Below are positions 1-26,524 of a DNA stretch of 30,211 nt, one piece after another. Where the stretch lies: the NCBI GenBank assembly GCA_010671965.1, contig JAAHIC010000010.1, positions 1 to 30,211 on the forward strand. The letters are read 5' to 3'. The notes beneath the pieces are model-generated. The model was not told the origin of the DNA, ran no database searches, and saw only the letters and a list, made by a program, of their open reading frames with translations. Numbering within the stretch: the first letter of the stretch is position 1; each line of letters begins with the position of its first letter. The position numbers and the translations under genes were made by a program. This stretch comes from Leptolyngbya sp. SIO4C5 (GTDB taxonomy: Bacteria > Cyanobacteriota > Cyanobacteriia > Phormidesmidales > Phormidesmidaceae).

Positions 1-784
1 TGTAGAAGCCCCGCGTCATTTGCGTGTTGTACTGATCCGAGCGATGGGCTTCTGAACCCTTCTCTCCGCCAATAATTAGCACCGCGCTGCCATCGTCTTT
101 CATCGCTTCGAGCGATCGCCAGGCAATAACATGATCTAGCTGTGAGCTGTTGATAGGGGTCGCCTCTGCGCCGATGGTGAAGCGCTCAGCTCTACCCTCT
201 TTGCGCCTGCGACCAAACGGCGGATTCGCAATCACCACATCCTGACTGCGCGGCTCTGGGCGGTAGCTGGTCGCATCGTTCTGAGTAACGCGGTAGCCCT
301 GTCGCCGCAGGTCAGCCGCTCGGTTATCATCCAGCTCATTCACCGTTGCCTTCTCTGGATTGGTTTCTAGTAACAGCGCCCCATGTCCGGCTGTCGGCTC
401 GTAGACGCTGGTTTCCTGAGTCACACCGGCCAACTGTGAACCCAGATAGGCAATCGGCATCGGCGTGCTGTACTGCTGACGTAGAATCGAGGTCGATGAA
501 CGGGTACCCAGGCGCGGCTGTCGCTGGTAGAGGTCTACCAGTTGCTCAAACGTCTCACCAGGCGATCGCCCTTGCTGAACGATTTGACGGCCCGCTCTGA
601 CCAACCCCTGCTCGATGGCTTCCTCGGTCGCTTTGGCGAGCGCATTGCCACCACTGACACGCTCTCCTAAAACCTCAGAGGCCACCTGACGCGCTTGGTT
701 GATCGTCTCAAAGCGATCGCCTGACAGTAAGCGTTCCTGGAACGCCTCTGCAAGCTGACTTTGTTGTTGCTCGCTTAAAGCCAT
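1..784 (-). CDS. N6-adenine DNA methyltransferase-domain protein, N-terminal part (runs off left edge)
   Basis: The frame stays open from an ATG at 784 to the window edge, giving the first 261 residues of a larger protein. After a helical, Gln-rich N-terminus (about 1-100), residues 128-135 (YEPTAGHG) match the S-adenosylmethionine-binding motif I and residues 187-190 (NPPF) are the catalytic motif IV of N6-adenine methyltransferases. The acidic step at 149-153 (NELDD) fits motif II. In known families this domain layout occurs in large plasmid and phage proteins that join a methylase to a helicase (strawberry-notch/SNF2 type). Whether a helicase follows here cannot be seen. The gene starts 7 nt after the stop of the preceding small gene, so it is the last visible member of the left operon. 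I infer a role in protecting or remodelling plasmid DNA. The methylase call is firm; the full architecture is unknown. Confidence 0.85.
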   Translation of the reverse strand, partial: MALSEQQQSQLAEAFQERLLSGDRFETINQARQVASEVLGERVSGGNALAKATEEAIEQGLVRAGRQIVQQGRSPGETFEQLVDLYQRQPRLGTRSSTSILRQQYSTPMPIAYLGSQLAGVTQETSVYEPTAGHGALLLETNPEKATVNELDDNRAADLRRQGYRVTQNDATSYRPEPRSQDVVIANPPFGRRRKEGRAERFTIGAEATPINSSQLDHVIAWRSLEAMKDDGSAVLIIGGEKGSEAHRSDQYNTQMTRGFY

Positions 785-791
785 CGCTCAG

Positions 792-983
792 CTACGAAGT
801 TGCCAGGAAGTATACAGGAGCAGGTTCATCATCAAAATGAACGGTCAAGAGTCCTGCTCTAAGACGAACTGAGCGCTCTAGCACTACTTCACCGTCTTCA
901 ATCCGTAGAATCTGCTGCCCATTCCAGTAGATAGACAGAATTTCCGGCTGCACCTGTAATAGCTGTTGAATAAAGGGATGCAC
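792..983 (-). CDS. hypothetical protein, 63 aa
   Basis: A 63-residue protein with a GTG start whose G is shared with the TAG stop of the SSB-like gene upstream (TAGTG). This close coupling is the main reason to accept it. The sequence is short and beta-rich, with alternating hydrophobic residues (ILSIYWNGQQILRI near residues 15-28), and has no signal peptide or membrane segment. I do not recognise a family. The gene lies between the SSB-like gene and the methyltransferase gene, with only 7 nt to the latter, so it is probably co-translated with both. Confidence 0.6.
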   Translation of the reverse strand: MHPFIQQLLQVQPEILSIYWNGQQILRIEDGEVVLERSVRLRAGLLTVHFDDEPAPVYFLATS

Positions 984-1351
984 TATGCCGCCTCAGCCTC
1001 ATTGTTCTGTTCATCCCCTTTGACCGATATCAGCTCGATGCGGTCAGGTGTCATTTGCAAGCCTGCTCGCGGCTCATTGTGGGTGCTAGTGATATAAGGC
1101 GACGGCTCTATCGCGCCGTAGACACAGATCAAGCTGCCCTTTTTCAGATAATCCAGCACCCGCCAGCCAGAGCTGTCTTCCCATATCGAGAGATCTACGC
1201 GAAACGACTTATCCCGGTCGCGGCGGTAGCGCACATAGATAGTGGCTTCCGCGACACGCGATGTCCCGCCGCTCAGCTCGATTTCTTTAATCTCTGGATC
1301 GGCGGCAAGGTTGCCCGTGATGATAGCGGTGTTGAGTGTCGTAACTGACAT
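983..1351 (-). CDS. ssb: single-stranded DNA-binding protein (SSB-like)
   Basis: This 122-residue protein has the SSB OB-fold pattern. It opens with N-x-A-I-I-T-G-N-L-A-A-D-P-E near residues 7-20, followed by strands with VAEATIYVRYRRD and FRVDLSIWED. The core ends with a YLKKGSLICVYGAIEP segment, the usual KG-x-x-(I/V)-x-V-x-G strand of SSBs. Such proteins coat single-stranded DNA, and plasmid copies commonly help with the strand that enters the recipient. The C-terminus (about 107-122, ending EAEAA) is acidic but lacks the canonical DDDIPF-like tip that recruits partner proteins in bacterial SSBs. The start is fixed by a strong Shine-Dalgarno sequence at 1358-1364 that overlaps the stop of the upstream gene. 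It belongs to the left operon. Confidence 0.85.
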   Translation of the reverse strand: MSVTTLNTAIITGNLAADPEIKEIELSGGTSRVAEATIYVRYRRDRDKSFRVDLSIWEDSSGWRVLDYLKKGSLICVYGAIEPSPYITSTHNEPRAGLQMTPDRIELISVKGDEQNNEAEAA

Positions 1352-2076: not shown

Positions 2077-4044
2077 TCAAGCCGATAACTCCCCGTACTC
2101 TGGACTCCACCACTGCTCTCGGCTCGTCCAGAAGTAAGCCACCTTGTCACAGTCAGCTTTGTCGGCCGAACAGCGCAGCATGGCTTTAGTCGTGTCGTCT
2201 TTCTGGTAAAAATGCTGCTCCAGTGCAGCACCGCAAACTGGGCACTGATGCTTAGTCAGCTTGTCTTCTGGCAGGTCGCTACCAGAGGGATCGTAGTTTT
2301 TCTGCACGTAGCCCTTGGCCCGCTTCAGCGCGGGCTGAAAATACTCGCTATTCCACCGGCACAAGTACCGCTGCCAGTCTTTCTCTCCCTGGGCGATCGC
2401 ATCTAGGGCCGCTTCCATTTCGGCAGTGAAGTCACTTTTAAGTAAGTCAGGGACGGTGGCCGCTAGCACCCGGTAGGTTTCCATTCCCAGCTTGCTAGGG
2501 GCAAGTTTTCGCTTAGAAATATGCACGTACTTACGGCTCTTGAGCGTCTGCACCGTGGCCGCAAACGTAGAAGGGCGTCCCACTCCCAGCTTTTCCAAGG
2601 TCTGCACGAGCTGGGCCTCACTGTAGCGCGGCGGCGGTGAGGTTTTACGCCGCTCTGACTTGCTCTGGGCCAGCTCTAGCGCCTGACCTTTTCTAATCTC
2701 TGGTAATGCCTCATCACCCTTGAGGTTGTTCCAGTAGCGGGCATAGCCCTCAAATTCAACTATCTGGCCCTTAGCCTCCCAGTACACACCACCCGACTCA
2801 CTCACAATGCGAGTTTTGGCAATCCGCGCATGACGGCAGCACGCGGCGATCGCCCGGTGCCAGATCAGGCTATAGAGCTGATACTGCTTTTCCGATAGGG
2901 TTTGGCGAACGCTATCAGGATGAATATCCAGGTAGGTCGGCCTAATCGCTTCGTGGGCTTCCTGTGCCCCTTTCTTAGCCCGGTAGGAAGCTGTCTGCTC
3001 CGGTACGTTTTCTGAGTCGTTCACCTCCAGCCAGGCTTTAGCCGTGGCCTTGAACTCATCTGAGAGCACTGGGGCATCAGTGCGGTGATAGGTAATCAAA
3101 GACTTACGGCCCTGCGGCAGATCTAAGCCTTCAAAGAGCTGTTGGGCCACCTTCATCACCTGACCTGTTGAAAAACCTAGCTTGCTACCTGCCGCCTGCT
3201 GCAAGGTCGAAGTCGTAAAGGGAGCTGGCGGCTTGCGATGAGTGGTACGCTGCTCTACCGACATCACCTGATGAGCTGACTTTTGGGCGATCTCCACCAG
3301 ACGCTTAGCATCCGCTTCTTTCCAGATTCGCCGCCCCTCGACAGCAGGCAGCTCATCAGCAGTTGTGGCATCGTCATCAGCTTCGGCTGCATCACCCTCC
3401 TCAGCTTGCTCAGTGCCCAGGAAGTAAGCTTTGAAGCCTTCCCCGTAGCGCACCCAAACCGACCAGTACGGCTCTGGCGTAAAGTCCTGGCGCTCTTTCT
3501 CACGACGGCAAACTATTGCCAGCGCCGCTGACTGTACCCGGCCCGCACTCTTACCCCCGCTGGAGTTCCACAGCAGCGGTGATACCTTGTAGCCCACTAG
3601 CTTATCTAAGACCTGCCTAGCTCTAGCCGCATCGGCTAAATCCTGGTCTAGTGACTGGGCAGCGTTGGCGATCGCCTGGGTGACGGCTTTCTCCGATATC
3701 TCCGAGTAGCGTACCCGGCGCAGCTTGCTCTTTGGTAAGTGGAGCTGCTGAGCCAGATGCCAACCGATTGATTCACCTTCTCGGTCGGGGTCAGTGGCAA
3801 TGCACACCTGCTCTGACTGTTTTGCCAGCTTGCGCAGCTTAGAGAGTACCTGTTTGCCTCGCTTACCTCTGGGCACATAGCGCGGCTCTACGCCTCTGCT
3901 GGTGATGGCAAAGCCTAGATTATCTTCGCCATCGTTCGCCAGCTCCGTGATGTGACCGAAGCTCGCCTCTACCCGCCAATCGCGGCCCAGAAAACCCTGA
4001 ATCGTTTTGCGTTTAGAAGGCGATTCTAGAATAAGTAATTTCAT
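2077..4044 (-). CDS. topA: type IA DNA topoisomerase (topoisomerase I)
   Basis: A 655-residue type IA topoisomerase that cuts one strand through a 5'-phosphotyrosine link to relax negative supercoils. The TOPRIM domain opens with LILESPSK (Glu7) and carries the metal-binding DPDREGE at about 85-91. SAGRVQSAAL at 166-175 is the conserved domain II/IV motif. The catalytic tyrosine is Tyr319 in SLITYHRTDAP, where the usual residue after Tyr (Met or Pro) is His. A C-terminal zinc-ribbon (CPVCG, then C and C about 20-25 residues later) is present near residues 600-635. An acidic insertion (about 211-235) separates blocks. The ATG overlaps the upstream stop (ATGA). A topoisomerase in a transfer operon parallels TraE of IncP plasmids. 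It is probably a plasmid-specific copy beside the chromosomal one. Confidence 0.95.
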   Translation of the reverse strand: MKLLILESPSKRKTIQGFLGRDWRVEASFGHITELANDGEDNLGFAITSRGVEPRYVPRGKRGKQVLSKLRKLAKQSEQVCIATDPDREGESIGWHLAQQLHLPKSKLRRVRYSEISEKAVTQAIANAAQSLDQDLADAARARQVLDKLVGYKVSPLLWNSSGGKSAGRVQSAALAIVCRREKERQDFTPEPYWSVWVRYGEGFKAYFLGTEQAEEGDAAEADDDATTADELPAVEGRRIWKEADAKRLVEIAQKSAHQVMSVEQRTTHRKPPAPFTTSTLQQAAGSKLGFSTGQVMKVAQQLFEGLDLPQGRKSLITYHRTDAPVLSDEFKATAKAWLEVNDSENVPEQTASYRAKKGAQEAHEAIRPTYLDIHPDSVRQTLSEKQYQLYSLIWHRAIAACCRHARIAKTRIVSESGGVYWEAKGQIVEFEGYARYWNNLKGDEALPEIRKGQALELAQSKSERRKTSPPPRYSEAQLVQTLEKLGVGRPSTFAATVQTLKSRKYVHISKRKLAPSKLGMETYRVLAATVPDLLKSDFTAEMEAALDAIAQGEKDWQRYLCRWNSEYFQPALKRAKGYVQKNYDPSGSDLPEDKLTKHQCPVCGAALEQHFYQKDDTTKAMLRCSADKADCDKVAYFWTSREQWWSPEYGELSA

Positions 4045-4694
4045 AGCTCTAGCCCTGACTCATCCTGCTTTTGTTGCAATTGTTGGCGCTGGTTTTCCTG
4101 CTGCTGAACAGCGATCTCCTCCATCTTTTCGGCAGACTGATTCATCCGCTCTTGGTCTGCAGACGTTATTCCCTCAGCCTTGAGTACATCACCTGCCTGA
4201 GCAACCAAAGAGCCGCCTGTCTCCTGGTTCTGGAGCACCCGTACATCACCCGCTTGAGTCGCTGAGTAGGTGTTGCCTTCGATGACATCCGTGCTACCTA
4301 CCGTCTGAGTTTTGCCTGCTGCTTTGGCCGCATCCATGAAGCGCTCGGTCGATTGCGCTACTGATTGCGCTACGGGATCAGCCGGAGAGCTAGGTTCATC
4401 GGCTGATGTCGTTACCGTGGCTGGCTCATCCGGTGAGGGTTGGCTCGAACTCTCGGCTTCTGCAGTCACCTCAACTTGCCCCTGCTCACGCTGCTTATCG
4501 GCTGCGAAAAGGAGCTTTTTCTGACCGTCAGACGGCTCGTTGCCATAAATCTGTTCTCCAGCCCGGATTTTGGCTGCCGCTTCTGCTAAGTCAGTATCGC
4601 CACCTGCGCCCATCTCATCGGTGTATTGCTCTTTGAGCTGGTTGAGCATCCGACCATATTGGCGGGCTTGTTCTCCGCTTGATTGTTCTGCCAT
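4041..4694 (-). CDS. LEL-tailed protein A, paralogue of the 5428-6243 product; candidate T4SS substrate
   Basis: A soluble, acidic 217-residue protein of unknown function. Residues 10-75 are helical, 76-110 form a Ser/Pro/Glu-rich linker, and about 112-190 form a module shared with the 5428-6243 protein and the relaxase C-terminus. Shared marks include VAQSTERFMDAAKAAG, an NQE-x-x-G turn and T-S-A-D-x-E. The tail (194-217) is very Gln-rich and ends DESGLEL. The other two proteins also end in LEL. The N-terminal part resembles the paralogue too (Y-x-x-x-x-S/A-D-x-Q-x-x-L-x-x-A-A). There is no signal peptide or membrane segment. The stop overlaps the topA start (ATGA). I infer from the shared tail that it may be recognised by the T4SS together with the relaxase; this is untested. 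Confidence 0.75.
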   Translation of the reverse strand: MAEQSSGEQARQYGRMLNQLKEQYTDEMGAGGDTDLAEAAAKIRAGEQIYGNEPSDGQKKLLFAADKQREQGQVEVTAEAESSSQPSPDEPATVTTSADEPSSPADPVAQSVAQSTERFMDAAKAAGKTQTVGSTDVIEGNTYSATQAGDVRVLQNQETGGSLVAQAGDVLKAEGITSADQERMNQSAEKMEEIAVQQQENQRQQLQQKQDESGLEL

Positions 4695-4723
4695 CTGCTT
4701 GAACCCAACACGTCAAGTCATGC

Positions 4724-4742
4724 CGCACTCGGCCTGAGTGCG
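4724..4742 (-). terminator. intergenic hairpin, possible attenuator
   Basis: CGCACTC, a 5-nt loop and GAGTGCG form a perfect 7-bp stem in the 63-nt gap between the duplicated-domain gene and the LEL-tailed gene. No T-run follows on the minus strand, so it is a weak terminator candidate. It may instead protect mRNA or attenuate transcription between the two genes. Confidence 0.35.
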
Positions 4743-4757
4743 CCTCATCAGCATCAT

Positions 4758-5399
4758 TCAGTTATGCGCGGCTTTGGCCTGCGTGGCTTTATGGGCCTGA
4801 AATTGTGACTCTAGCTCGGCTAAGCGGCTCTTGAGATTCTCCACCCAGCCTTGCGTAATCGGCTGTACAATACTGCCGAAAACCTTATCTTCCTCGCGGT
4901 CGCCATCAAGGTATTGCAGCATCACATTTGCCCTAGCCGGAACTGGAATTTTAGCCACTCTCTTAACGCGGGCAAAGCGCATCTGATGATTTTCATAGAC
5001 ACGTACCAAAGAATCGACAATCACCCCGTTCCTCAGCTTGCCGCTATTCTGAGCAGGCTCAGCTTGAGCGCTGATTGGTCCATTGACTGAAGGCTCGAAG
5101 ATGTCCTTGATGTCTTCAAAACGATCTTTCATGTCTTCCAGCCAGCCCCGTGTCACGGGCTGCACAATATTGCCAAAAACCTTTTCCTGATTCCCACCCT
5201 CTAGCTCGTCAAGATACTGCACCGTCACGTTTGGCCCTATGCCGGGTCTGCTGACGACATGCAGAACTCTGGCAAAGCGCATTTCATGCTCCCTATAGAT
5301 CCGCACAAAAGACCCGGCTCGAACACCGTTCTTTAGCCTGCCGCTCTTTTGAGGCTTAGCTTGAACGGTAGATTGGCTCGCTAACTGCTGCGTAGTCAT
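4758..5399 (-). CDS. internally duplicated protein, 213 aa, unknown function
   Basis: The 213 residues consist of two copies of one domain, about residues 19-95 and 119-195, with a 100-residue period. Each copy begins SG(R/K)L(K/R)NGV, continues with (F/L)VR(I/V)Y, then MRFARV, a QYLD motif, KVFG-(N/S)-IVQP and GW(L/V)E, and ends in a charged helix. The spacing of small hydrophobic strands suggests a beta-barrel-like fold (an SH3 or Tudor-like fold is a guess) followed by a helix. I do not recognise the family. It has no signal or membrane segment. A strong Shine-Dalgarno sequence precedes the ATG. The gene lies between two paralogous LEL-tailed genes, so it may act with their products. Confidence 0.75.
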   Translation of the reverse strand: MTTQQLASQSTVQAKPQKSGRLKNGVRAGSFVRIYREHEMRFARVLHVVSRPGIGPNVTVQYLDELEGGNQEKVFGNIVQPVTRGWLEDMKDRFEDIKDIFEPSVNGPISAQAEPAQNSGKLRNGVIVDSLVRVYENHQMRFARVKRVAKIPVPARANVMLQYLDGDREEDKVFGSIVQPITQGWVENLKSRLAELESQFQAHKATQAKAAHN

Positions 5400-5406
5400 G
5401 AGGTTT

Positions 5407-5412
5407 CCTCCT
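5407..5412 (-). promoter_or_regulatory. strong ribosome binding site of the duplicated-domain gene
   Basis: On the minus strand an A-run leads into AGGAGG, 7 nt before the ATG at 5399. It fixes the start of the gene and suggests a higher translation level than its neighbours. Confidence 0.75.
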
Positions 5413-5427
5413 TTTTTTGATAGTTCA

Positions 5428-6243
5428 CTACAGCTCTAGGTCAGGAGCTGGCCGCTGTTGGCGGCACTGCTCCTGTTGCTCCTGCTGTAGCTGCTCAACA
5501 CTCACCTGGCCGTACTGACTCCAGGCTTCTCGATCTGAGGCAGTTAAGCCGCTGGCTTCGCTGACACCTGCCTCATCTCCAACTGCAATTCCTTCACTTT
5601 CCTGGTTCTTCACCGTCACCACACCAGCCCGACTACGGCTGGCAATGTAGCGCTCGTTGACGGCTCGAACTTCGTCCAAACTCTCATCGATAACCCTACT
5701 CTCATCGATAACCCCAGCGGCGATCGCTGTATCTAAGAAACGACGGGCATTGTCTAGAATGTCCTGAGCCATATCGTCTTGGCTCGCTGTTTCGTCTGAC
5801 GCCGCTTCACCACTGGCGGCTGCTTCTCGCTTAGGTGGCTCTGAAAAAGCGATCGCTGACTCTACCGGCTGCTGGTCTTCCGACGGCTCTAGCTGGGCTA
5901 CCTCTTCCTCTACCTGCTCGATACCGCTATCACCTGAGCTATCGCTGTTAGCTGCCGCTGTACTGGAAAGCTGAGGGGACAGCTCTATTGCAGGCGATCG
6001 CTCTATACCTGACTGCTGACCTGTTAGCTGCTGCGCAGCCCGATTTAAGGTTTCCTGCTCGTCAGCCATTGGCGCGTATGTTGGCAGGTCAGCCTGCCGC
6101 TGCCGGGTCGATACGACCTGCCAAGCATCACCAGGGCTAACGCCTTGCTGAGTCAAGGTATCAACACCTTGCCGTAGTCGCTCACGCTGAACGTTCGTGA
6201 GATCGGCTAAAGCACTAGGCAAATGGATATCAGCTCTAGACAT
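5428..6243 (-). CDS. LEL-tailed protein B, paralogue of the 4041-4694 product; candidate T4SS substrate
   Basis: A 271-residue soluble, acidic protein of unknown function. The N-terminal 80 residues are helical, and about 80-157 form a low-complexity Ser/Glu/Ala linker. Residues about 158-245 form the module shared with the 4041-4694 protein and the relaxase C-terminus (MAQDILDNARRFLDTAIAAG, VVTVKNQE-x-x-G, T-A-S-D-R-E). The tail is Gln-rich (QLQQEQQEQCRQQR) and ends PAPDLEL. An 18-bp tandem duplication at 5680-5715 encodes a doubled VIDES unit. The ATG overlaps the upstream TAA (TAATG). The shared tail suggests a common partner such as the T4SS coupling protein, and hence possible transfer to the recipient. 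No enzymatic motif is visible. Confidence 0.75.
   Translation of the reverse strand: MSRADIHLPSALADLTNVQRERLRQGVDTLTQQGVSPGDAWQVVSTRQRQADLPTYAPMADEQETLNRAAQQLTGQQSGIERSPAIELSPQLSSTAAANSDSSGDSGIEQVEEEVAQLEPSEDQQPVESAIAFSEPPKREAAASGEAASDETASQDDMAQDILDNARRFLDTAIAAGVIDESRVIDESLDEVRAVNERYIASRSRAGVVTVKNQESEGIAVGDEAGVSEASGLTASDREAWSQYGQVSVEQLQQEQQEQCRQQRPAPDLEL
5680..5715. repeat. 18-bp tandem duplication inside the 5428-6243 gene
   Basis: Two 18-bp units, ACTCTCATCGATAACCC followed by T or C, lie head to tail and stay in frame. In the minus-strand protein they give GVIDESRVIDESL. They look like a recent slippage or duplication at the edge of the linker and the C-terminal module. Confidence 0.85.
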
Positions 6244-7343: not shown

Positions 7344-9617
7344 CTATCTAAAGTTGATAAAGTTTTCTGGATCCACCGCTGTAGAAGCATTTGGGAAATT
7401 AGCTTGACTATTGCGGTACACACCAAAATCCAGGTGAGGCCCAGTCCCATTGCCCGACTGACCAGAGGCCGCAATCTGTTGCCCCTGAGAAACAGCAGTA
7501 CCTTGAGAAACACCGTAGCTACTCAAGTGTGAGTAGCGAGTCTTATAGCCATTGCCATGATCAATTACGACTGTCCTGCCGTAGCCACCAGCCCAACCGA
7601 TATAGGAAACAACACCACCATCGGCTGCATTGATAGGCGTTCCCATTGGAGTGCCTAAATCCACCGCAGGATGGTATTTGCTACAGCCAGCACACGGTCT
7701 AGGACGCGGCCCGAAATCAGAGGTCATCACATAACCCGGTGCAGGGTTGGCGAACTGCCCAGTTGCCTGACCAGAACCTTGACCACCCCCCGGTACGCAG
7801 TTCTGCCCCCCTTGAGCAACATAGTTTTTGCGGGACTGCACACCGTAGTCGTAGAGGCTGAGCCTACCCAACGCATCCGAACGGCCCCCATCAATCGGAG
7901 CACCTGGCCCACCAAACCACATCTGACTAACCCGTTCAACTAAACGCCCACCTGTGAAAGGTCTACCTGTTTGTGGATCAACTTGGTTCTGAGCACGGCT
8001 AAAAAGCTGTTGCATTTCTGCCTGATACGCTCGCTCCTGCGCTGGCTGCGGAAAATAGCGATTAATCTCTGCTGCCGATGGACGGTAGCCGCCGCTGATG
8101 CGATTGAGCCATACTTGTCCGCCTGATACCTGCTTCACCTCAGCCTGCACTTCTGGCAGGTAGGTCATCATCTGATAGCGGCCCAATGCCCGACCGCCAT
8201 TGGTATACACACCCACAGCCTGATAGTTGCCAGAACCGCGTGACTCAATGCCAGCGATCGAGTTCGCCAGCTTATCTAAACTGACGCCTGCAATCGTTTT
8301 GCCTGTGCATGGCCCGGTGGTAATCGGGCTAAGCTGTGACCCCGGATATCGTGTTGTCCCCGGCGGCGGCGACGGCGCTGCGCTGGCACCGCCTTGACCA
8401 TCGAGCGGCCCCACATACAGCAGTGAGTTCACTTCATAGTCCAGCCAGGGAATTGAAAACTGGTTGTACGGGGTGCAGGTGCGACCAATAACCGGAATGT
8501 AGGTACACCAGCGGAAGAATAGCTTGAAGCTCACTTCATCGGTGGTTTCATCCGGTTCCCACACCACCATCTTGAAAACTGAGCCAAAGGGATGCCGACC
8601 TGTCGGTTCATAGCCCACTGAGTAGCCCATTGGTGAGGGCACATACTTGAGCGGCCCAAAGCCACCCTCAACTTCGTGGTACTTACCGCTAATCCACTGC
8701 TTGCCTTCAAAGCCGCCCTGTACCTTGCGACCTTCGTTTTCTAAGTCGTCTAGCTCGATGTAAGCGCACTTATCAGGCGCTCTCACTAGCTGGCCTTCCT
8801 CCGAGCAGGGCACCTCAAAGCCTGCCTGGTAGGAACCGCTAATCGTATTGGTGCGCCGGTCTTCTGCTGGCCCCCAGATAAAGTCGATGCGGCTGATGAT
8901 GCCGTTCAGCCCAGTAATGCCGCTGGGAAACTGGCTCAGCGGTATGTGCTGCAAGCCAGGAACATCCGAAATCTTGGCCTCATCCCAGCCTTGAAAATCA
9001 GCAATCTGAGCTGAGTCGATGTTCGGCAGGTCAGCGACTTTAAAGACATCCAGATTAGTCGCTCCTAGCTTTAGATCCTTTAAGCCAGGATTGTTGGAGA
9101 GGAACTGGTCAATCGTAATATTGCCAAAGTCAAGCTGCCCAGTCTGCTGAGAGAGGAGCTGCTTGATAGGCGCGACATCCCCTACCTTGTAATCTCCCAG
9201 GTAAGGAACTGAGGCTGATAGATTTTCTAAGGTCTGCTGAGAGAGGAGCTGGTAGGTTGACAGGCGACCTTCGGAAAAGTTGGTGCCCGTGATCTGATTA
9301 ATCTGGCCCAGCGATAGGCTTTGTCCGCCCAAGGCTGAAACATCGCCAATGGTCAGCACGCTGCTAACGGGATCGCCTGTCTGCCACTGACGCTGCACTC
9401 CCTGAAAATCGATGTTGCCGCCCTGTTCAACGTTGCCCAAATCAGCAAACGAAACATTATCAAAGTTGGGCACCACCTCTTGATAGGCACCGCTTTGTGT
9501 CTGAATCAATGCTGGCGCTGTCTGCTGCTGCGTTTGCGCGGCTGCCGGAGCTGACGGCAGCAGAAAGGCCGCGAGCGCTAAACAAATTATCAGTAGGTAT
9601 CTCAACAGCGCTTTCAT
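7344..9617 (-). CDS. secreted peptidoglycan hydrolase: lytic transglycosylase plus M23 peptidase
   Basis: A 757-residue protein with a signal peptide (about 1-27, ending APAAAQ). The N-terminal 30-250 region is repetitive (LLSQQT twice, repeated short 'D-x-x-x-I/L-P' steps), and 260-400 is an uncharacterised beta-rich part. Residues 450-600 look like a lytic transglycosylase: Glu458 in IAGIESRGSG and GRYQMM at 479-484 match the catalytic Glu and conserved loop. After a Gly/Gln linker, residues 645-757 are an M23 (LytM) endopeptidase with His649 and Asp653, His697 in YSHLS, and GPHLD at 726-730. In the usual HxH the second His is a zinc ligand, and here it is Asp730. The enzyme would open peptidoglycan for the transfer channel, like VirB1 or P19. 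The start overlaps the stop of the AAA+ gene (TAATG). Confidence 0.88.
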   Translation of the reverse strand: MKALLRYLLIICLALAAFLLPSAPAAAQTQQQTAPALIQTQSGAYQEVVPNFDNVSFADLGNVEQGGNIDFQGVQRQWQTGDPVSSVLTIGDVSALGGQSLSLGQINQITGTNFSEGRLSTYQLLSQQTLENLSASVPYLGDYKVGDVAPIKQLLSQQTGQLDFGNITIDQFLSNNPGLKDLKLGATNLDVFKVADLPNIDSAQIADFQGWDEAKISDVPGLQHIPLSQFPSGITGLNGIISRIDFIWGPAEDRRTNTISGSYQAGFEVPCSEEGQLVRAPDKCAYIELDDLENEGRKVQGGFEGKQWISGKYHEVEGGFGPLKYVPSPMGYSVGYEPTGRHPFGSVFKMVVWEPDETTDEVSFKLFFRWCTYIPVIGRTCTPYNQFSIPWLDYEVNSLLYVGPLDGQGGASAAPSPPPGTTRYPGSQLSPITTGPCTGKTIAGVSLDKLANSIAGIESRGSGNYQAVGVYTNGGRALGRYQMMTYLPEVQAEVKQVSGGQVWLNRISGGYRPSAAEINRYFPQPAQERAYQAEMQQLFSRAQNQVDPQTGRPFTGGRLVERVSQMWFGGPGAPIDGGRSDALGRLSLYDYGVQSRKNYVAQGGQNCVPGGGQGSGQATGQFANPAPGYVMTSDFGPRPRPCAGCSKYHPAVDLGTPMGTPINAADGGVVSYIGWAGGYGRTVVIDHGNGYKTRYSHLSSYGVSQGTAVSQGQQIAASGQSGNGTGPHLDFGVYRNSQANFPNASTAVDPENFINFR

Positions 9618-15139: not shown

Positions 15140-15478
15140 TTGGCTCGTACTGATCAGATTCACTTCTTGGTGACATCCGCTGAAAAAGATCGAATCACGA
15201 GGAGAGCACAAGATCAGGAAGTTAGCTTGTCTGATTTCTTGAGATCTCTGGCTTTAGATGAGCAAGTTTCTGAAAGCACCTGGGCTGATATCAGGCGGTA
15301 TCTATCGGCTATCGAGGCTCAGTTGTTTGCTCTGAGATTTGTGATTGAAGCGGAACTAGATGTTACTTTTTCTCGGCACAGTGCCGAAATTGATGCCAAC
15401 GAAGACCCGGTAGAGTACCACTTTGCTCTACTTGCAGAGAAGCTGAAGCAGCTTTTTTTAGAAGCTCAACAACGTTAA
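15140..15478 (+). CDS. relaxosome accessory protein, ribbon-helix-helix-like (MobC/NikA type)
   Basis: The 112-residue protein opens with a beta-strand and helix typical of relaxosome accessory proteins: QIHFLVTSAEKDRITRRAQD followed by E-V-S-L-S-D-F-L-R-S-L-A-L. Relatives such as NikA and MobC bind oriT beside the nick site and help the relaxase. The rest is helical and acidic and may dimerise. The start is a TTG at 15140 with no Shine-Dalgarno sequence. No upstream ATG is available in frame, so translation is probably modest. The gene ends 3 nt before the relaxase ATG, a standard pairing in MOBP systems. It follows the palindrome at 15096-15110, which it may bind. Coding status is very likely; the exact start is less sure. 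Confidence 0.8.
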   Translation: MARTDQIHFLVTSAEKDRITRRAQDQEVSLSDFLRSLALDEQVSESTWADIRRYLSAIEAQLFALRFVIEAELDVTFSRHSAEIDANEDPVEYHFALLAEKLKQLFLEAQQR

Positions 15479-15481
15479 CCG

Positions 15482-17695
15482 ATGGCTATTGTCAATGCAG
15501 CTACAACCAAAGATTTCCGGGCCACTCACCGCTATGTAGCCGTGAGAGAGGATAAGCAGCCACAGGTTATCCATTCTTCTGTGCCTCAAGGCATCGATGC
15601 TCTGCTGGGTCAGGAGATTGACCCAATCGCCACTGCCGAAGCGATGGAAACACAAGCCGCCAAGAGCGATCGCGTTGAAAAGCCTTGCTATCACATCTCT
15701 ATCTCTGTTGCTGAGGAAGATGAGCTGTCTAAGTTGGATTGGAATCAGCTTGCGACCGGATTTCTAGAGAAGACTGGCTTGGACGGACATCAAGCGGTCG
15801 GCTACCTACATGAGGACACAAGCTATCCAGACAGCGACGAGATACGACCACACCTGCACCTAGTCGTTAACCGGGTAGGCGCTGATGGGGTTGCTGTTGA
15901 TACGTCATGGGACTACTACCGCTTCCAAAACGCAATTCGCGACGTGGAGCAAGAGATGGGCCTGACCTCTGAGCCGAATAGCTGGGAAGTGGGGCACCGC
16001 CGCGACCCATCCGGGCAAGTTCATCGCCTAGCCGCCGAGCAAGCCCAATATGAAAATTCAGAGCATCCGCGTCAAAAGCCACCTCAACCAACTGTTCGCT
16101 CTAAGCTTCAGGATGCGATTGACAGCGCTATCGAGCAGGCCACTTCAGTTGAAGGCATCACAAACTTCCTAGAGAAACAAGGCATTGATACCCAGCTCAG
16201 CGATCGCGGCTGGAGCTTAGAGAAGGACGGTATTGCCTTTGCCGGAAGCCAGCTCGGACGAGCCTATTCGATGAATGCGGTAGAGCAAATCATGGCGGAA
16301 TCACCAGAGCAAAAAGAGCAAATCATTGATGCCGAGTGGCAACCTGCTGAGGCGGAAGGTAGCAGCAAGGCAGATAGCAAACAACGCCAGAAGCAGCGCC
16401 AGCGCTCGATGAAGCAAATCATGCAGGAGACGGCTGATGCTGAAGAAGACTCCAGCGATCGCCAGCAGCAGGGCCGCAAGATTAAGCGCTCTGGTGAACG
16501 TCTATCGCGGCAGTCTGATGAAGTGGATGGCCTTACCTTTCTCGGTGGCACCGTCGCCGCAGCGGGCGGACTGCTGGAGCTAGGTGAAAAGTTCGGCCAA
16601 GAAGTACGCAAGGCTCGCAGCCGCGCCAACAGCCAACGTGCGACAGAGCAAATTGACAAGCTAGAAGAGATAGGCGATCGCACCACAGCGCTAGAAAAAT
16701 CGTTAGTTGAGCAGGCTGAACAGGTTGACGAACAGCCGGAAACAGAGGCGCAAACTACCGAAAGTGACCTAGCAGCCGATAGCCAATCTCCTACTGAGAA
16801 AAGCTTGAATCTGGCTAATGAGCGTATCAGCGCTATTGGCGATCGCTTGGGCGTGGAGCTGGGAGAAGCTGAGCCGATTGAGCTAGATCCAAATGCTCCT
16901 ATCGGCAAGCAGCTTGATCAGATGGATGAGGCGATCGCTCAGATTGATCAGCGCCTCGGCACGCTGGAGAATGCGGTGGGCGAAATCACGCAATCACCTA
17001 AGCCTGAGCTAGGCAGTAGGCCCACAGGCGATGAAGTTGCCCAATCGCTTGAAAACTTCGTTCAGGCAAGAACTGAGTTTAGGAGTGAAACAGAACCGAG
17101 TGCTTTTGATAGCTCGGCTGGAACTGTGGAGCTATCGCGCGAGGGCTTCCAAGGCCGAAACTCACGGCTGACCGTCACAGATCCCAGCTACGGCACCGTA
17201 CTGGAAGCTACCAAGGAAAAGGAAGTAGATGGAGACTGGCAGACCCAGATTGACGAACTGAGTGATGAGCAAGCTCAGACAATCAGCCAGCTTCCTCAAT
17301 CCGCTCAGGAATACGGTCAGTACAAGCAGGGACAACAGCTTGTCGATAGCTTGAGAAGCTTACCGCAGACGGCAGATGAATTTGCAGGCAACAGCGGCAA
17401 TATCCGCTGGAATAGCCCAGAATCCGGCTTTGACTATGAGTTCAGCATTGAGCGTCAGGCCGATGGCACTCAGCAGATTACAGGTCAAGACCGAGAGAGC
17501 GGTGAGCAGGTCTTTAGCGCCACTGCGGGCAACGATGACGCTATCTTCGTTGAGCAAAACAATGTCCCTAGCGACCACACACAAGAGCTTTTAACCCAGA
17601 AGGAGCAGGAGCTAACGTCTTCTGACCAAGAAGCGGAGCAAGCGCGTAGAAGAACGCCGCGCCGCCGCTCTAAGCAGCGCGAGCTGGAGCTATGA
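15482..17695 (+). CDS. relaxase, MOBP/VirD2-like, with duplicated C-terminal module and LEL tail
   Basis: A 737-residue relaxase that would nick plasmid DNA at oriT and lead it through the T4SS. The metal-binding motif III is H110-E-D112...R-P-H124-L-H126-LVVNRV, preceded by HISISV (71-76). The nicking tyrosine should be in the N-terminal 25 residues; Tyr18 in HRYVAV is a candidate. Residues about 300-350 are Gln/Lys-rich, and 370-510 form likely coiled coils. About 519-620 and 632-715 are two copies of a module also found in the 4041-4694 and 5428-6243 proteins (VAQSLENFVQA, G-T-V-L-E-A-T, L-S-D-E-Q). The end is Arg-rich and finishes SKQRELEL. C-terminal relaxase segments commonly carry the T4SS secretion signal, so this module is a good candidate. 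The gene follows its accessory gene by 3 nt. Confidence 0.92.
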   Translation: MAIVNAATTKDFRATHRYVAVREDKQPQVIHSSVPQGIDALLGQEIDPIATAEAMETQAAKSDRVEKPCYHISISVAEEDELSKLDWNQLATGFLEKTGLDGHQAVGYLHEDTSYPDSDEIRPHLHLVVNRVGADGVAVDTSWDYYRFQNAIRDVEQEMGLTSEPNSWEVGHRRDPSGQVHRLAAEQAQYENSEHPRQKPPQPTVRSKLQDAIDSAIEQATSVEGITNFLEKQGIDTQLSDRGWSLEKDGIAFAGSQLGRAYSMNAVEQIMAESPEQKEQIIDAEWQPAEAEGSSKADSKQRQKQRQRSMKQIMQETADAEEDSSDRQQQGRKIKRSGERLSRQSDEVDGLTFLGGTVAAAGGLLELGEKFGQEVRKARSRANSQRATEQIDKLEEIGDRTTALEKSLVEQAEQVDEQPETEAQTTESDLAADSQSPTEKSLNLANERISAIGDRLGVELGEAEPIELDPNAPIGKQLDQMDEAIAQIDQRLGTLENAVGEITQSPKPELGSRPTGDEVAQSLENFVQARTEFRSETEPSAFDSSAGTVELSREGFQGRNSRLTVTDPSYGTVLEATKEKEVDGDWQTQIDELSDEQAQTISQLPQSAQEYGQYKQGQQLVDSLRSLPQTADEFAGNSGNIRWNSPESGFDYEFSIERQADGTQQITGQDRESGEQVFSATAGNDDAIFVEQNNVPSDHTQELLTQKEQELTSSDQEAEQARRRTPRRRSKQRELEL

Positions 17696-18356: not shown

Positions 18357-18392
18357 TCTGGCGTAGTTTGTCCGCGTACCTCAGCATTGCTT

Positions 18393-21300
18393 ATGAGCCT
18401 TGATATCGATAGAGATCCCGTTCGCGTTAATAAGCTGCTGGGGGCGCGGGCCAGCATTGGCCCCATCCCCGCTGAGCAACTCATGCCCTGGGTGGCTATC
18501 GGTGGGGTCAGCTTCTTCTTCGTCAAGATGCTGTTGGCCCAGAACTTCATCACCTGGCTCCTGGTGTGGTTCTGGCTCAACGGTACCTGGTGGGTGCTCA
18601 CAGGCGAGAAAACCTACAAGTTCATCAAATCCTGGGCGCACCCGCCTGGCCATGACTGGACAAACGGAGAAACGATCTTTATTCGAGCCTATGAACCCGG
18701 TATGTGGGATAAATTTCGCAAGTTTCTGAAAAAAGACAAGAAGATTAAGCGCAAAACCCAGTCAGGGGAAAAGCAGTTCGCCCCTTTCCAAGATTTGTGC
18801 CACCTCCACTCAATCGTTCAAGTTGAACTGGGAGGCCATAAGTTTGCCTGCTTGCTGCTCTATGACGCCAAGAAAGATCAGTGGTCAGCAGAAATTCCCT
18901 TTAAGTTCCAAGGGCTGCACCCGCAGCTTTACCGCGCTGAAGTAGAGGAAGCCATCGGCTCGCTTCAGCAGGGGATGGCGGAACTACTCGACGGTGAGCG
19001 CCTACGCTTCTACACCGAATGTAAATCCTCGATTACAGAGCGCAGAACCCAGCTTAGAAACCTGGCCCGCATCTCTAAAATGCCTCCCATTTCAGTGATG
19101 CTCTTGGATGAAGAAGCCCGGATTAAGGAACTCACTGAGAAAGGTATCCGGCAGGTTTGGAGTCAGACCGTTTGGGCCACCTGGTCGAGTGCCCGCGCGG
19201 ATGAGCAAAACACAGATTTTGTTGGCAAGGCGGTATTAGGCGCTAAGAAACTCATTAATAAGAGAGTCCGCAAGGTGGCGGGCACTGAAGAACACCACTT
19301 CAAACAGTTCTACCTCAAGCTGGTAAGACAGATTTACGAGAGCGGCTATCTCAACTGGAGAAATGTCCTCGAAACTAAAGCTAAGCTCAACTTCGAGCCG
19401 ATGGACGCTCAAGAGCTATGGGAATGGCTCTGGTATCGCTTCAATCGCCGCAAAGCACCACAGCTCACCCAATACATCAGAATTCGTGAGACCGAAGACG
19501 GCATCAGACAGCGAATACCCCCTTCTGGTCAGAAAGATTTAGTAACGCTGCTGCTCCAGGGCGATCGCGGCCAGCCTTCCACACCCCGGCACAAGCGGCA
19601 GCATGGCTATATCTACGTCAATGGCCGCGTCGGAAAGGTCGCCGTACTCGAAGCCCCACCTGAGCTATGGCGCAATACCCGCCAGCAGCTCAAGTGGATC
19701 TGGGAGAGATTATCGAACTCCTACGTCCGCGATACCGAATGCGTCGTTGAGGTCACGCCCAAGGAGCGTTGGAGTACCCAGGATGAGCTAGAGAAGATGA
19801 CCCGCCAAAGTCACTTCGAGAGCGAGCGGGCGGCTACCTACGGTACCGGGCGTGATGTCCACGCCGCCTTGCAAAGCAAGCAGGCTGAGCAAGCCCTGAT
19901 GAAGATGCTCGAAGGCCAAAAGCCAATCCTGGTTGGCTGCACCTTCATCGTCTGGAGAAAGTCTGAAAGGGAATGTGATGAGGCGATCGCCCAGCTCTGT
20001 AACAGCTTCGGCAGCGCTGAGGCGGTGATTGAAAATGATGTCTGCTGGCGGGTTTGGCTCGAAACCTTACCCATTAATAGGTTTCCGTTGCTGACCCGTT
20101 ATAACGCTTTTTCAGAGCGGCGCATTGTTCTCGATACCGAAACCGTCGCCGGATTCCTACCAATTACCTGCCCGCGTGACGTTCATGACCAAGGTGTCGA
20201 ATTTCAAACGGAAGAAGGGGGCAAGCCGCTCTACGTCGATCTGTTCACAGGTACCGGGCGAGTCCTGATCACAGGTACCACTGGCTCTGGTAAGTCGGTA
20301 CTCGGCTGGCGCTTTATTGAGGATGCCCTAGCTCAAAATATTCCGGTCGTCGGCATTGACCTCAGCTCCGGTGGCAACAGCACCTTCCAAACTGCTGTGC
20401 AGGCACTCGGTAGGCATGGTGCTTATATCGATATTCTCCATGAAAAGCTCAATCTGCTAGAACCGCCCAATCTGCTCAATCTCAGACCTGAAATTCAGCT
20501 TCAGCGTTTCAAGCGCTGGAAAGACTTTGTCCGGCAGGCAATTGTAGCGATCGCTATGGGTCAGATTAATGACCAGCAGCTTCTAGAGCGGGTTAACTCT
20601 ATTGTTTTGCGGACGCTAGAAGTCTTCTTTGCGGACGCTGAGATTCTAGAGCGCTACAACGAGGCGATGGAAAAGGGCTGGCTCAGTGAAGCTTGGCAGA
20701 AGATGCCCACGCTGCATGAGTTTTTGAAGTTTTGCTCCAGAGAACAGCTTGACCTCAAAAGCTATGAGGATATCGACGCAAAAGCCATCAACCAGATTGT
20801 TAGCCAAGTCGGGGCCAAGCTCGTTGACCCGAATATTGGAGATGCGATCGGGCAGCCCAGCTCGGTAAATCCAGACCCCATCATCAAGTTCTATGCGCTG
20901 TCAGGTCTGACTAACGAGAGCAACGCCTACATCATGGCGCTTTCAGCTCAGATGGCCGCCCTCAGAAATGCTCTGGCTCACGATAAATCGCTGTTTGTAG
21001 GTGATGAGCTGTCGGTACTGCTGGGCAAGCGCGGCTTTGCCGAATTAGTCGGTGAAACCTTTGCCACCGGGCGGAAAGAGGGCATTAGCTCAGTCATCCT
21101 GGCCCAGGATCTCGATGCCATTGTCGAATGCTCAGCCAGCGCTAAGATCCTTGCCAACATCAGCACCGTCATTACAGGAAAAACGACTCATGCAGGCTGC
21201 AACGCCTACATGCAGGCGCTTGACTACCCTGAATCGGTGATTAAATTCAACGCCACCGAACGCTTCAAGGGCAGCAAAGCCGATCTCTTCTCCCGGTGGC

Positions 21301-21590
21301 TGGTAGAAGAACAGGGCCGCTTCTGGCGCACCCGCTATTATGCTGCGCCACTGATGCTGGCAGCATTAGCCAACGGAGAGGAAGAACAGCTTGCTCGTAA
21401 CCGGGTGCTGGCTTTCTATCCAGAAACCACTCGCGGCTATCTCGATGGCCTCAGAGAATTTTCCCGCCAATATGTGCAGGCCATGCGCGGTGCCATCGGC
21501 TTCGAGGATATTCAAGCACCCCCTGAAGTCAGACGCCGATTCCAAGCCGCAGGCCAAAAGCGAAGCTTAGTAGCGACGAAAACAGACTGA
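18393..21590 (+). CDS. virB4: VirB4/TrbE-type conjugative ATPase with N-terminal VirB3-like membrane segment
   Basis: A 1065-residue ATPase from ATG 18393 (a TTG two codons upstream is less likely). Residues about 31-70 contain two closely spaced hydrophobic segments followed by GEKTYKF, resembling a VirB3/TrbD domain fused to VirB4, a fusion known in several T4SSs. The Walker A motif is GTTGSGKS (628-635). Walker B lies near residues 866-873 (SLFVGDELS), where the DE pair follows an unusual V-G. A conserved AQDLD segment near 905 fits the later sensor region. VirB4 powers pilus assembly and substrate transfer at the inner membrane. Length exceeds the usual 800-900 residues because of the fused N-terminus and an extended middle domain. 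Its TGA overlaps the next ATG. Confidence 0.9.
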   Translation: MSLDIDRDPVRVNKLLGARASIGPIPAEQLMPWVAIGGVSFFFVKMLLAQNFITWLLVWFWLNGTWWVLTGEKTYKFIKSWAHPPGHDWTNGETIFIRAYEPGMWDKFRKFLKKDKKIKRKTQSGEKQFAPFQDLCHLHSIVQVELGGHKFACLLLYDAKKDQWSAEIPFKFQGLHPQLYRAEVEEAIGSLQQGMAELLDGERLRFYTECKSSITERRTQLRNLARISKMPPISVMLLDEEARIKELTEKGIRQVWSQTVWATWSSARADEQNTDFVGKAVLGAKKLINKRVRKVAGTEEHHFKQFYLKLVRQIYESGYLNWRNVLETKAKLNFEPMDAQELWEWLWYRFNRRKAPQLTQYIRIRETEDGIRQRIPPSGQKDLVTLLLQGDRGQPSTPRHKRQHGYIYVNGRVGKVAVLEAPPELWRNTRQQLKWIWERLSNSYVRDTECVVEVTPKERWSTQDELEKMTRQSHFESERAATYGTGRDVHAALQSKQAEQALMKMLEGQKPILVGCTFIVWRKSERECDEAIAQLCNSFGSAEAVIENDVCWRVWLETLPINRFPLLTRYNAFSERRIVLDTETVAGFLPITCPRDVHDQGVEFQTEEGGKPLYVDLFTGTGRVLITGTTGSGKSVLGWRFIEDALAQNIPVVGIDLSSGGNSTFQTAVQALGRHGAYIDILHEKLNLLEPPNLLNLRPEIQLQRFKRWKDFVRQAIVAIAMGQINDQQLLERVNSIVLRTLEVFFADAEILERYNEAMEKGWLSEAWQKMPTLHEFLKFCSREQLDLKSYEDIDAKAINQIVSQVGAKLVDPNIGDAIGQPSSVNPDPIIKFYALSGLTNESNAYIMALSAQMAALRNALAHDKSLFVGDELSVLLGKRGFAELVGETFATGRKEGISSVILAQDLDAIVECSASAKILANISTVITGKTTHAGCNAYMQALDYPESVIKFNATERFKGSKADLFSRWLVEEQGRFWRTRYYAAPLMLAALANGEEEQLARNRVLAFYPETTRGYLDGLREFSRQYVQAMRGAIGFEDIQAPPEVRRRFQAAGQKRSLVATKTD

Positions 21591-24676: not shown

Positions 24677-26524
24677 ATGGCTGATAAAGAAAATCTCGGC
24701 TTCCCAGAGGTCGATGAAGAAACTAACCACAACAGTAATAACGGCAATGGCAGGGGGAGTCAGATCACGACAGCTCCGGCTGAAAAAAACGCTAACACTA
24801 ACAGTAATGGGTCTGTCTCTGAAACCGATGACGATAGCATCCCTTATGAGGAACAGCTTGGCTATGCTGGTGTCGATCCTGACGAGGAAGATGAGCTAGT
24901 CACCACCGAAGAACTCATAGAAGGGCCAAGCACTGCTAAGCAAAGAGGGGCTGAGAATTCCCCCCTGCCCAGGCTCGCCCTAGTCGCTGCGGGTCTAGGG
25001 GCGATCGCTTTCATTATCTGGATCTTCTCCGGCCTCTTCGGCGGTAGTGAACAAGTCGCTCAGCCAGGCGAAGAAAATCCTTTTCCCGATGAGGAAACTT
25101 CCCCCTACAGCGAAAGCGATCGCTATAAGGCAGAACTGGCTCTCATTGAACAGGAAGACGCTCAGCCAGAAGAACGGGTGGCAATCGCCCAAACACCGGA
25201 GCGACCCAATCAGCCGGAAGCAGACGGTGAAACGCAGTCACCGCAGACGCCAGCTCAGCCTACCGCAACGCGCTCTAGCCCATCGCGCTCGGTGCCCTCG
25301 TCTCCCAGTCCGTCACCACCACCGCCGCCACCAGAGCCAGCCGCTTCGACGCTTTCTCCCTCACCTGCTAGACAGCCACTACCGGATCTCAGCGGTTCCT
25401 CCCGTTCCCCATCACCTACGCCACAGCTAGAGGAGGAAGTCGATCCCCTAGAGCAGTGGTCTAGGCTTTCTCGCGTCGGCTCAGCCGGGGCTGAAGTTGC
25501 CCTCAGACCCGAGCCGGAGTTTGAGGAAGAAGCTACCACTTCAGGCGATCGCCCTCGCCCTACTCGTTCTAGTTCTGGCCGTAACCCAGCGGCCAGCAGC
25601 TCTAGTCAGCCAGAAGCTGAAAATTTCCCGTTTCCCTCAGCGAGGATTGGCGACAATCCCGTACCGCTGCCAGAGCAACAGCAGCCAGAAACAGCCGCTT
25701 CATTACAGCCGCTCAGCTCAGCTCGGTACTCGCCAACAGCAGCCAGCTATTCCACTAAGGCCCAGCCTCAAGGCGAGCTGGTCGCTATGTCTCCAGGAAC
25801 AAGAGGCATCCTTAATCGCAGACCTACAAGCAATCAACCCACAGCGCAGCCGCAGCAGCCTGCTATCCGTCAGGTGGCAATCGGTTCCTCTGCCCAGGGC
25901 ACAGTTACGGTGCCGGTTGTCTACGCAGGCGGTGATGGGCCTACTGGCGGGCGCTCTGCCGTTGAGCTGACTTCGCCACTGCTCGATATCAATGGGCAGG
26001 TGGCCCTGCCAGAGGGCACCGTCTTGATTACCGAAATCTCAAACATTCTTGAGGCCAACATCATTCAGCTCGCAGTCGTTGCCATTGTCTATCAGGATGC
26101 GGCGGGCAGAGTTCGGCAAGAAGCCATCGAACCTGGCGTTATTACGGTGCGAGGCGAGGATAACGAACCGCTGGTAGCAGAAGTCGAGAATGATGGCGGT
26201 AGCAGCTTTGGCGATGACCTCTTAGTCGGCTTGGCCGGGGCGCTTGGCAATATCGGTCGGGTGATTAATGCCCCTGATGCCGTGACGACTGCTAGCTCTG
26301 GTTCGTCCGGTAATCGCACATCGACCAGCACCTCGACCACGGTTACCAGCGGCAACAACGACAATATCTTTGGCGCGGCTCTAGAAGGTTTCTTTACACC
26401 CACAGCCGAACGCCTTTCTGAGCGCTCCCAAAATAACCGTGAGACAGCTCAGCCCTATTTAATTGTCGAGGAAGGTGAAGAGGTTTCTATCTTTGTTGAT
26501 GGCTTACTGGAGGTGGCTCTCTAA
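24677..26524 (+). CDS. virB10: VirB10/TrbI-type T4SS core protein
   Basis: A 615-residue protein with VirB10 topology. It has an acidic cytoplasmic N-terminus, one transmembrane segment (about 99-121), a long Pro/Ser/Gln-rich periplasmic stretch (about 185-400) and a C-terminal beta-rich domain (about 405-600). In that domain VPVVYAGG, S-P-L-L-D-I-N-G-Q-V-A-L-P-E-G and the run of short strands after it match the TrbI/VirB10 core. A disordered Ser/Thr segment (about 535-560) precedes a last conserved strand (VEEGEEVSIFVDGLLEVAL). VirB10 spans the envelope and gates the outer-membrane pore on ATP signals. Its TAA overlaps the next ATG (TAATG). The long Pro-rich part is at the high end for the family, perhaps to cross a thick cyanobacterial envelope. 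Confidence 0.88.
   Translation: MADKENLGFPEVDEETNHNSNNGNGRGSQITTAPAEKNANTNSNGSVSETDDDSIPYEEQLGYAGVDPDEEDELVTTEELIEGPSTAKQRGAENSPLPRLALVAAGLGAIAFIIWIFSGLFGGSEQVAQPGEENPFPDEETSPYSESDRYKAELALIEQEDAQPEERVAIAQTPERPNQPEADGETQSPQTPAQPTATRSSPSRSVPSSPSPSPPPPPPEPAASTLSPSPARQPLPDLSGSSRSPSPTPQLEEEVDPLEQWSRLSRVGSAGAEVALRPEPEFEEEATTSGDRPRPTRSSSGRNPAASSSSQPEAENFPFPSARIGDNPVPLPEQQQPETAASLQPLSSARYSPTAASYSTKAQPQGELVAMSPGTRGILNRRPTSNQPTAQPQQPAIRQVAIGSSAQGTVTVPVVYAGGDGPTGGRSAVELTSPLLDINGQVALPEGTVLITEISNILEANIIQLAVVAIVYQDAAGRVRQEAIEPGVITVRGEDNEPLVAEVENDGGSSFGDDLLVGLAGALGNIGRVINAPDAVTTASSGSSGNRTSTSTSTTVTSGNNDNIFGAALEGFFTPTAERLSERSQNNRETAQPYLIVEEGEEVSIFVDGLLEVAL

Follow-up and report, generated by a model that had tools for sequence, protein, structure and literature searches.

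A hydrophobic-acidic-hydrophobic C-terminal tail, often combined with a small α-β5-α module, as a candidate signal for the VirD4-type coupling protein of cyanobacterial conjugation systems

It is established for conjugation in general that a VirD4 receptor recruits the relaxase via translocation signals (PMC8406263), and signals for VirD4 are borne by effectors as well as by relaxases; according to the available sections of PMC10025392, the signals of type IV secretion systems (T4SS) vary widely, without a consensus that holds for all effectors. In Agrobacterium, VirD2, VirE2 and VirF, which are VirB/VirD4 substrates, carry C-terminal, positively charged signals (PMC10025392). The T4SS effectors of Xanthomonadales (X-Tfes) end in the XVIPCD, a C-terminal region of about 120 residues with a conserved part and then a Gln-rich end, which is found in many N-terminal fusions and is needed for the interaction with VirD4 (PMC6536674). 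That plasmid proteins are injected together with the DNA is an idea already published: the F-type pED208 T4SS translocates SSB, ParA, ParB and PsiA/B (PMC8406263), and for the polyvalent proteins of phages and conjugative elements, which include large plasmid-encoded proteins bearing methylase-helicase or polymerase parts, entry into the recipient along with the DNA has been proposed (Iyer et al. 2017, PMC5512222). The general question is how conjugative coupling proteins select what they pass on. Here we analyse a stretch of 30,211 bp of Leptolyngbya sp. SIO4C5 (assembly GCA_010671965.1, contig JAAHIC010000010.1), hereafter the window, which is an entire contig from a genome of 5.6 Mb and encodes a conjugation system whose relaxase ends, as do two small proteins of the same contig, in a short hydrophobic-acidic-hydrophobic tail.

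The relaxase (737 aa, 15482..17695, plus strand) is composed of the relaxase domain, a coiled-coil-like middle, two α-β5-α copies, an Arg-rich linker and the tail ELEL; the catalytic domain (15620..15964, plus strand) matches PF03432 with E=3.8e-24 and 85.9 bits, against a curated cut-off of 24.6, and the tail (residues 734-737, 17681..17692, plus strand) closes the open reading frame (ORF) as ...KQRELEL. On the minus strand, the 217-aa protein (4041..4694) consists of an N-terminal half, a C-terminal module (residues 106-186, 4137..4379), a Gln-rich linker and the tail GLEL (residues 214-217, 4044..4055, ORF end ...DESGLEL). The 271-aa protein (5428..6243), also on the minus strand, has a conserved helical N-terminal part, a disordered middle, a module (residues 148-245, 5509..5802), a Gln/Arg-rich linker and the tail DLEL (residues 268-271, 5431..5442, ORF end ...PAPDLEL). 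In Pfam and NCBIfam scans no known family scored above the cut-off in either small protein. The initial annotation of this DNA had pointed to these three ORFs, to their tails and to a module preceding them, and had proposed that module and tail form a plasmid-specific export tag; ORFs and tails were as described when read directly at all three protein ends. Moreover, the tails are kept within their families. All 8 members of the 271-aa family end in [DE]LEL, while the linker ahead of it is variable, and ELEL ends all 12 closest full-length relatives of the relaxase (P0009, P0012-P0022). Over the 19 relatives with a complete end (P0009, P0012-P0029, the partial P0010 and P0011 being excluded) these 12 are followed by GLSL, ELSL, QLER, PREL, ESER, EAER and ESER.

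The occurrence of the tail on other relaxases was measured with a pattern fixed beforehand, namely a C-terminal [LIVMFWY][ED][LIVMF] followed by 0-1 residue. It was set after reading 37 relaxase ends, 14 of which fit, a count that is descriptive, the sequences overlapping those behind the pattern. The sample was made up of the cyanobacterial relaxase matches listed; further matches exist. The first 60 loci were taken roughly in rank order, skipping places already seen, the well-represented genus g36, whose ends had failed to fit earlier, and short ORFs, a choice that favoured the pattern, and 22 of their 58 distinct ends fitted; the 47 skipped places were then given the same test, with 9 fits among 39 ends. 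Apparent fragments were counted as misses, 2 loci had no relaxase ORF, 2 ran off the end of the stretch and 6 tails were duplicates. Altogether, among the matches listed, 31 of the 97 further relaxases from cyanobacteria carry the tail at their end, where the rate inside the same proteins predicts about 1.7% per protein, and the claim that the tag is specific to this plasmid had to be abandoned. Leaving aside nine relaxases of the RELEL type, already met before the test, the count was 22/88. As controls, the other complete ORFs with 100 aa or more were taken from the first 60 stretches and from 20 T4SS stretches, and 4 of these 408 fitted; of 12 relaxases of other phyla none did (Fisher p=0.018 against the full set of 97). 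When the relaxases were clustered, a match was present in 12 of 53 clusters at 70% identity, in 8 of 29 at 50% and in 3 of 10 at 40%. The tail on cyanobacterial relaxases is far above background, yet patchy, being frequent in certain lineages and lacking from others. A second recurrent ending of cyanobacterial relaxases was RGFSR or RGFSL (loci L194, L205, L206, L214, L218 and L219), and some of the control relaxases from outside the cyanobacteria (L255, L257, L259) end with Arg-Gly and, shortly after, a hydrophobic residue.

The tail is shared by proteins of very different build. Separate relaxases of about 315 aa, a length that leaves no room for the double α-β5-α unit, end in RELEL (G174:C38, G200:C15, G180:C1 and G269:C2, genome and contig), and another relaxase type on such contigs ends in DWEI (G225:C10) or GWEL (G379:C6). 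The double unit, in turn, recurs near VirB4 in proteins with another N-terminus, ending in ELQV, EMQV, ELQA or EIEM, all of the form E-h-[EQ]-h with h for a hydrophobic residue, with the sole exception of L133, which ends in DQER; no relaxase domain was found in these VirB4-adjoining proteins, three of them searched by Pfam and the rest by a relaxase profile. Since relaxase and double-unit protein are separate elsewhere, the window relaxase looks like a fusion of both, with the tail at its end. In the whole double-unit family, E[LIMV][EQS][LIVMA] fits 18 of 21 members, a description rather than a test because the pattern was derived from that family. Several such contigs also carry mutually related polymerase-like proteins of 1095-1331 aa, or fragments of them; three were scanned and two match PF05183 (QDE-1-type RNA polymerase), one above the cut-off; these plasmid proteins are possibly an injected RNA polymerase or primase. 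In 5 of 8 contigs their ends, IELN, IELS, ELEMV or IEIT, fit once the pattern is relaxed slightly. One pattern class is found on seemingly unrelated proteins of a single contig, as in G225:C10, with DWEI on the relaxase, SEMQV on the module protein and DIELS on the polymerase-like protein, and in G379:C6, where the same three kinds of protein end in GWEL, PEMQV and NIELN. The polymerase-like proteins near VirB4 include L086:43591-46962, L084:28282-32166, L131:2508-6503 and L132:872-4249. On the contig of L133 (G085:C75), ER is the ending of two proteins (PDQER and STLER) and also of the relaxase (L311, RQLER); some relaxase relatives end in SER or AER, and the tails may co-vary within one plasmid.

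The simplest role for a tail that relaxases of differing architecture have in common with unrelated proteins from the same plasmids is to signal recruitment by VirD4. On balance we favour the reading that the hydrophobic-[E/D]-hydrophobic tail, on a flexible Arg/Lys/Gln-rich linker, is the C-terminal feature by which the VirD4-type coupling protein recognises its cargo in many cyanobacterial conjugation systems, and that the 217-aa and 271-aa proteins are co-transferred establishment factors. The tail on the relaxase would allow the coupling protein to recruit the relaxase-DNA complex; other plasmid proteins would have acquired the tail, often on a small α-β5-α module, whose part may be docking, spacing or assembly, and would travel with the DNA through the T4SS. 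The two small proteins would be passengers acting on establishment in the recipient. What the sequences show directly is the tails, their enrichment, the module with its predicted topology and its genomic association with the coupling protein; binding to the coupling protein, export and a function in the recipient are inferred. The initial annotation had seen something real, and its export-tag idea survives in an altered form, with the tail as the likely signal and the module as a separable second part on a subset of the likely passengers.

The modules of the 217-aa and 271-aa proteins are homologous by sequence: the C-terminal stretches of about 90 residues share 30/89 identities in a pairwise BLASTP (E=4e-7), the 217-aa protein was the second match in a whole-genome search with the 271-aa protein (E=9.1e-6), and their profiles score 41.7, where the best of 100 column-shuffled decoys reached 19.9. 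For the relaxase, AlphaFold2 predicts the same topology twice in residues 501-737 (model residues 16-102 and 108-223; mean pLDDT 90.6), corresponding to copy 1 (residues 516-602, 17027..17287, plus strand) and to copy 2 with its long last helix (residues 608-723, 17303..17650, plus strand). The 271-aa protein is modelled with helix, five strands and helix once, over residues 148-245 (strands at pLDDT of about 82-91, whole model 67.2), the likeness of the two models being judged by topology. By sequence, the relaxase copies and the small-protein modules agree no better than chance, the real score being reached by 10, 35, 39 and 45 of 100 shuffled-profile decoys; when the profiles were enlarged, copy 1 against the small-protein module scored 18.7, just over the best of 40 decoys (17.9), and for copy 2 the real score was reached by 18 of 40. 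The two relaxase copies show a weak likeness to each other (21.0 versus a decoy at 20.2, and 20.1 versus 15.3 with larger profiles), and the duplication claimed at first is only partly confirmed. We accept from the models a topology common to the relaxase and 271-aa modules, with common descent as a possibility. Of a module proposed for all three proteins, the kinship of the two small ones was upheld, and the concern that the alignment might do no better than shuffled sequence proved unfounded for this pair and justified, in the direct test, for the relaxase.

A profile of the 271-aa family placed the module at the ends of cyanobacterial proteins in 7 of 388 genomes, the window's own included, on ORFs of 1401, 1295, 1203, 836, 385, 354 and 2155 aa, some of them cut by contig ends; its presence at the C-termini of diverse proteins was thus confirmed. 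Four carriers were scanned, and one contains a strawberry-notch helicase domain (Helicase_C_4) together with DUF6908, another DUF6908, and two nothing recognisable. In the 354-aa protein (G015:C180) the module is related to that of the 217-aa protein and the tail is GMEMD. With a wider profile, 12 strong places in 9 genomes emerged, and at E<=0.01 matches were present in 24 of the 388 genomes; the weaker matches include small proteins, from genus g36 and elsewhere, ending in DLELG or PQLER, whose profile scores 51.5 against the module, compared to 15.3 for 40 decoys. At L064, L067, L081, L072, L071 and L082, the small g36 proteins have module-like C-termini (DLELG/PQLER), and the relaxases there end differently. 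On plasmid1 of Leptolyngbya NIES-3755, a 627-aa protein (L051:6739-8622) seems to contain two module units and ends in GMELS, with a methylase-helicase ending in GVEMG and a relaxase ending in NLEI nearby; two of the four fitting control ORFs mentioned above end in GVEIG, like this methylase-helicase.

A coupling protein of the window type was encoded in 8 of 8 other genomes with a strong module, in 6 of them on the same contig as the module; its identity to the window's protein is 60-75% for G188, G015, G009 and G008, and near 40% for G026 and G297. VirB4 of the window type, found in 116 of 388 genomes, was not found at E<=1e-20 in G008, G297 and G062, though the module is present there; because of these three genomes, the module appears to associate with the coupling protein more than with a complete channel. 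The expectation that the module occurs only alongside a T4SS therefore holds for the coupling protein, present with all the carriers found, and is not borne out for VirB4 of this type in G008, G297 and G062. In the near-complete genome G008, a contig of 107 kb (G008:C3, L031-L036) bears a coupling protein 62% identical to that of the window and a module-bearing helicase.

How does this compare with the known systems? Module and tail span about 95-125 residues at the ends of the 217-, 271-, 354-, 385-, 836-, 1203-, 1295-, 1401- and 2155-aa ORFs, and the 217-aa and 271-aa proteins have a Gln-rich C-terminal region, both as in the XVIPCD. The latter has a model in Pfam; by contrast, none of 12 module sequences belonged to a Pfam family at E<=0.01. 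Furthermore, the proteins found here belong to cyanobacterial conjugative plasmids and have in common with relaxases a hydrophobic-acidic-hydrophobic tail, unlike the XVIPCD. By analogy, the layout of a folded module with a Gln-rich end on diverse proteins may resemble the XVIPCD in function, without sequence membership. The linker resembles the signals of VirD2, VirE2 and VirF; whereas an Arg motif is the feature described for Agrobacterium in the available sections of PMC10025392, the cyanobacterial Arg/Lys/Gln stretch leads into an L-E-L-like end and often comes after a folded module. The helicase- and methylase-bearing relatives recall the polyvalent proteins, parts of whose type lie near the conjugation system, namely Helicase_C_4 in a module carrier, N6_Mtase at 2-784 of the window and the PF05183-like proteins near VirB4. 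The two or more disparate known domains per chain that mark polyvalent proteins were not found in the 217-aa and 271-aa proteins, both of which are small. In the available portions of PMC5512222, no common C-terminal export tail or module was seen for the polyvalent proteins, and cyanobacteria are mentioned once; in the literature searched, no description of the tail or of the module was found.

Several observations weigh against the tail as a general coupling-protein signal. The pattern is missing from 66 of the 97 further relaxases, and the 31 that bear it are not independent, kinship lowering their effective number. Other endings recur among relaxases (RGFSR, RGFSL, xxER), and the g36 relaxases that were read end in QAKIG, QEIQ, PIP and similar, despite a VirB4 there and small module proteins in DLELG/PQLER. 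The separate relaxase of G347:C11 ends in SLATA, the polymerase-like proteins of the remaining 3 of 8 contigs miss even the looser pattern, and of the 9 module proteins outside the window whose end was read, 5 miss the looser pattern (EPEMA, SELT, EAEL, EMGL, LDATR) and 4 conform to it. Relaxases without the tail are likewise rich in K/R/Q at their end (35%, versus 44% with it), so the linker is not tail-specific. The coupling-protein survey covered module genomes only, which leaves the 8/8 without a matched control, and G008 has module, coupling protein and relaxase with VirB4 not found at the threshold given above. Finally, TraI (F/R1) and TrwC (R388) are relaxases with signals for the coupling protein, as proposed here, but these signals are internal, while the cyanobacterial tail is C-terminal (PMC10025392, available sections).

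Two alternatives deserve attention. It is unlikely, in our opinion, that function lies in the module, as a domain for DNA binding, oligomerisation or relaxosome assembly that plasmid DNA-processing proteins share, with the tail as its inherited end. The module family is clear among small and large plasmid proteins and reaches the further small ones described above, and helicase or polymerase-like parts occur in some carriers; the RELEL tail, however, is present on 315-aa relaxases too short for the double module, and the linker between module and tail varies in length and sequence while the end is kept. The short relaxases also bear on the proposal of module and tail as one tag: relaxases without the module do exist, which counts against the module, and what relaxases have in common is the tail, which is indeed borne by the relaxase and other proteins of T4SS plasmids. 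We regard as similarly improbable that the tail binds another partner in the donor cell rather than the coupling protein, be it a membrane anchor, an accessory protein of the relaxosome, or a protease or chaperone blocked or attracted by the acidic-hydrophobic end. Short C-terminal tails often serve such partners, many relaxases lack the tail despite a T4SS in the genome, and the contigs of the 97 relaxases lie outside the coupling-protein survey; on the other hand, relaxases share the tail with unrelated proteins of T4SS contigs, it is rare in other ORFs, and the coupling protein accompanies the module in every genome surveyed. Chance or a common low-complexity composition is a very improbable cause, even if the tails are short and follow Gln/Arg-rich stretches and the relaxase and small-protein modules have no direct sequence link, because the pair of small proteins scores twice the best of 100 decoys and the tails are both enriched (31/97 versus 4/408) and kept within families.

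The coupling protein that we propose as the reader of the tail is encoded at 27275..29155 (plus strand; PF12696, PF10412, PF02534). The same strand carries a NikA-like relaxosome accessory protein (15140..15478, PF21983, E=7.6e-10), whose NikA/MobC-like gene adjoins that of the relaxase, a VirB4/TraC-like T4SS ATPase (18387..21590), with weak Pfam matches under the cut-off and homologues in 112 plasmid records, and a TrbI/VirB10-like protein (24677..26524, PF03743, E=1e-7, 32.4 bits with a cut-off of 35). On the minus strand, an M23 peptidase protein (7344..9617, PF01551) lies in the transfer region. ParA- and actin-like genes were also detected by the Pfam scan, and the named relatives of window proteins are Sphaerothrix, Almyronema and Thainema records. 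The minus-strand gene run includes the 271-aa, 213-aa and 217-aa proteins, a type IA topoisomerase (2077..4044, PF01131), a single-strand DNA-binding protein (983..1351, PF00436 and NCBIfam) and, cut by the contig end, the N-terminal part of a DNA methylase (2..784, PF02384, N6_Mtase), which by eye resembles the start of the 2155-aa G297 protein ending in the module. The 213-aa protein (4758-5399), between the genes of the 217-aa and 271-aa proteins, has an internal repeat, its two halves resembling each other and each surrounding an MRFARV stretch. The topoisomerase gene starts just before the 217-aa gene has stopped, the two sharing 4 bases (4041-4044), which suggests coupled translation, and the neighbourhood of single-strand DNA-binding protein, topoisomerase and methylase suggests an early establishment role for the 217-aa and 271-aa proteins.

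DarB-type methylase-helicases have been argued to modify the incoming DNA, and polymerases or primases to start expression or replication (PMC5512222, available portions). Tentatively, and with somewhat less than even confidence, we suggest that many cyanobacterial conjugation systems read a common C-terminal code, made of a basic/Gln-rich linker and a hydrophobic-acidic-hydrophobic end and often accompanied by the module, and that plasmids use it to send an establishment kit along with the DNA: the relaxase, a methylase-helicase against restriction, an RNA-polymerase-like protein made of a single chain, and small proteins like those of the window. If this is true, the passengers of cyanobacterial conjugation could be listed from sequence alone.

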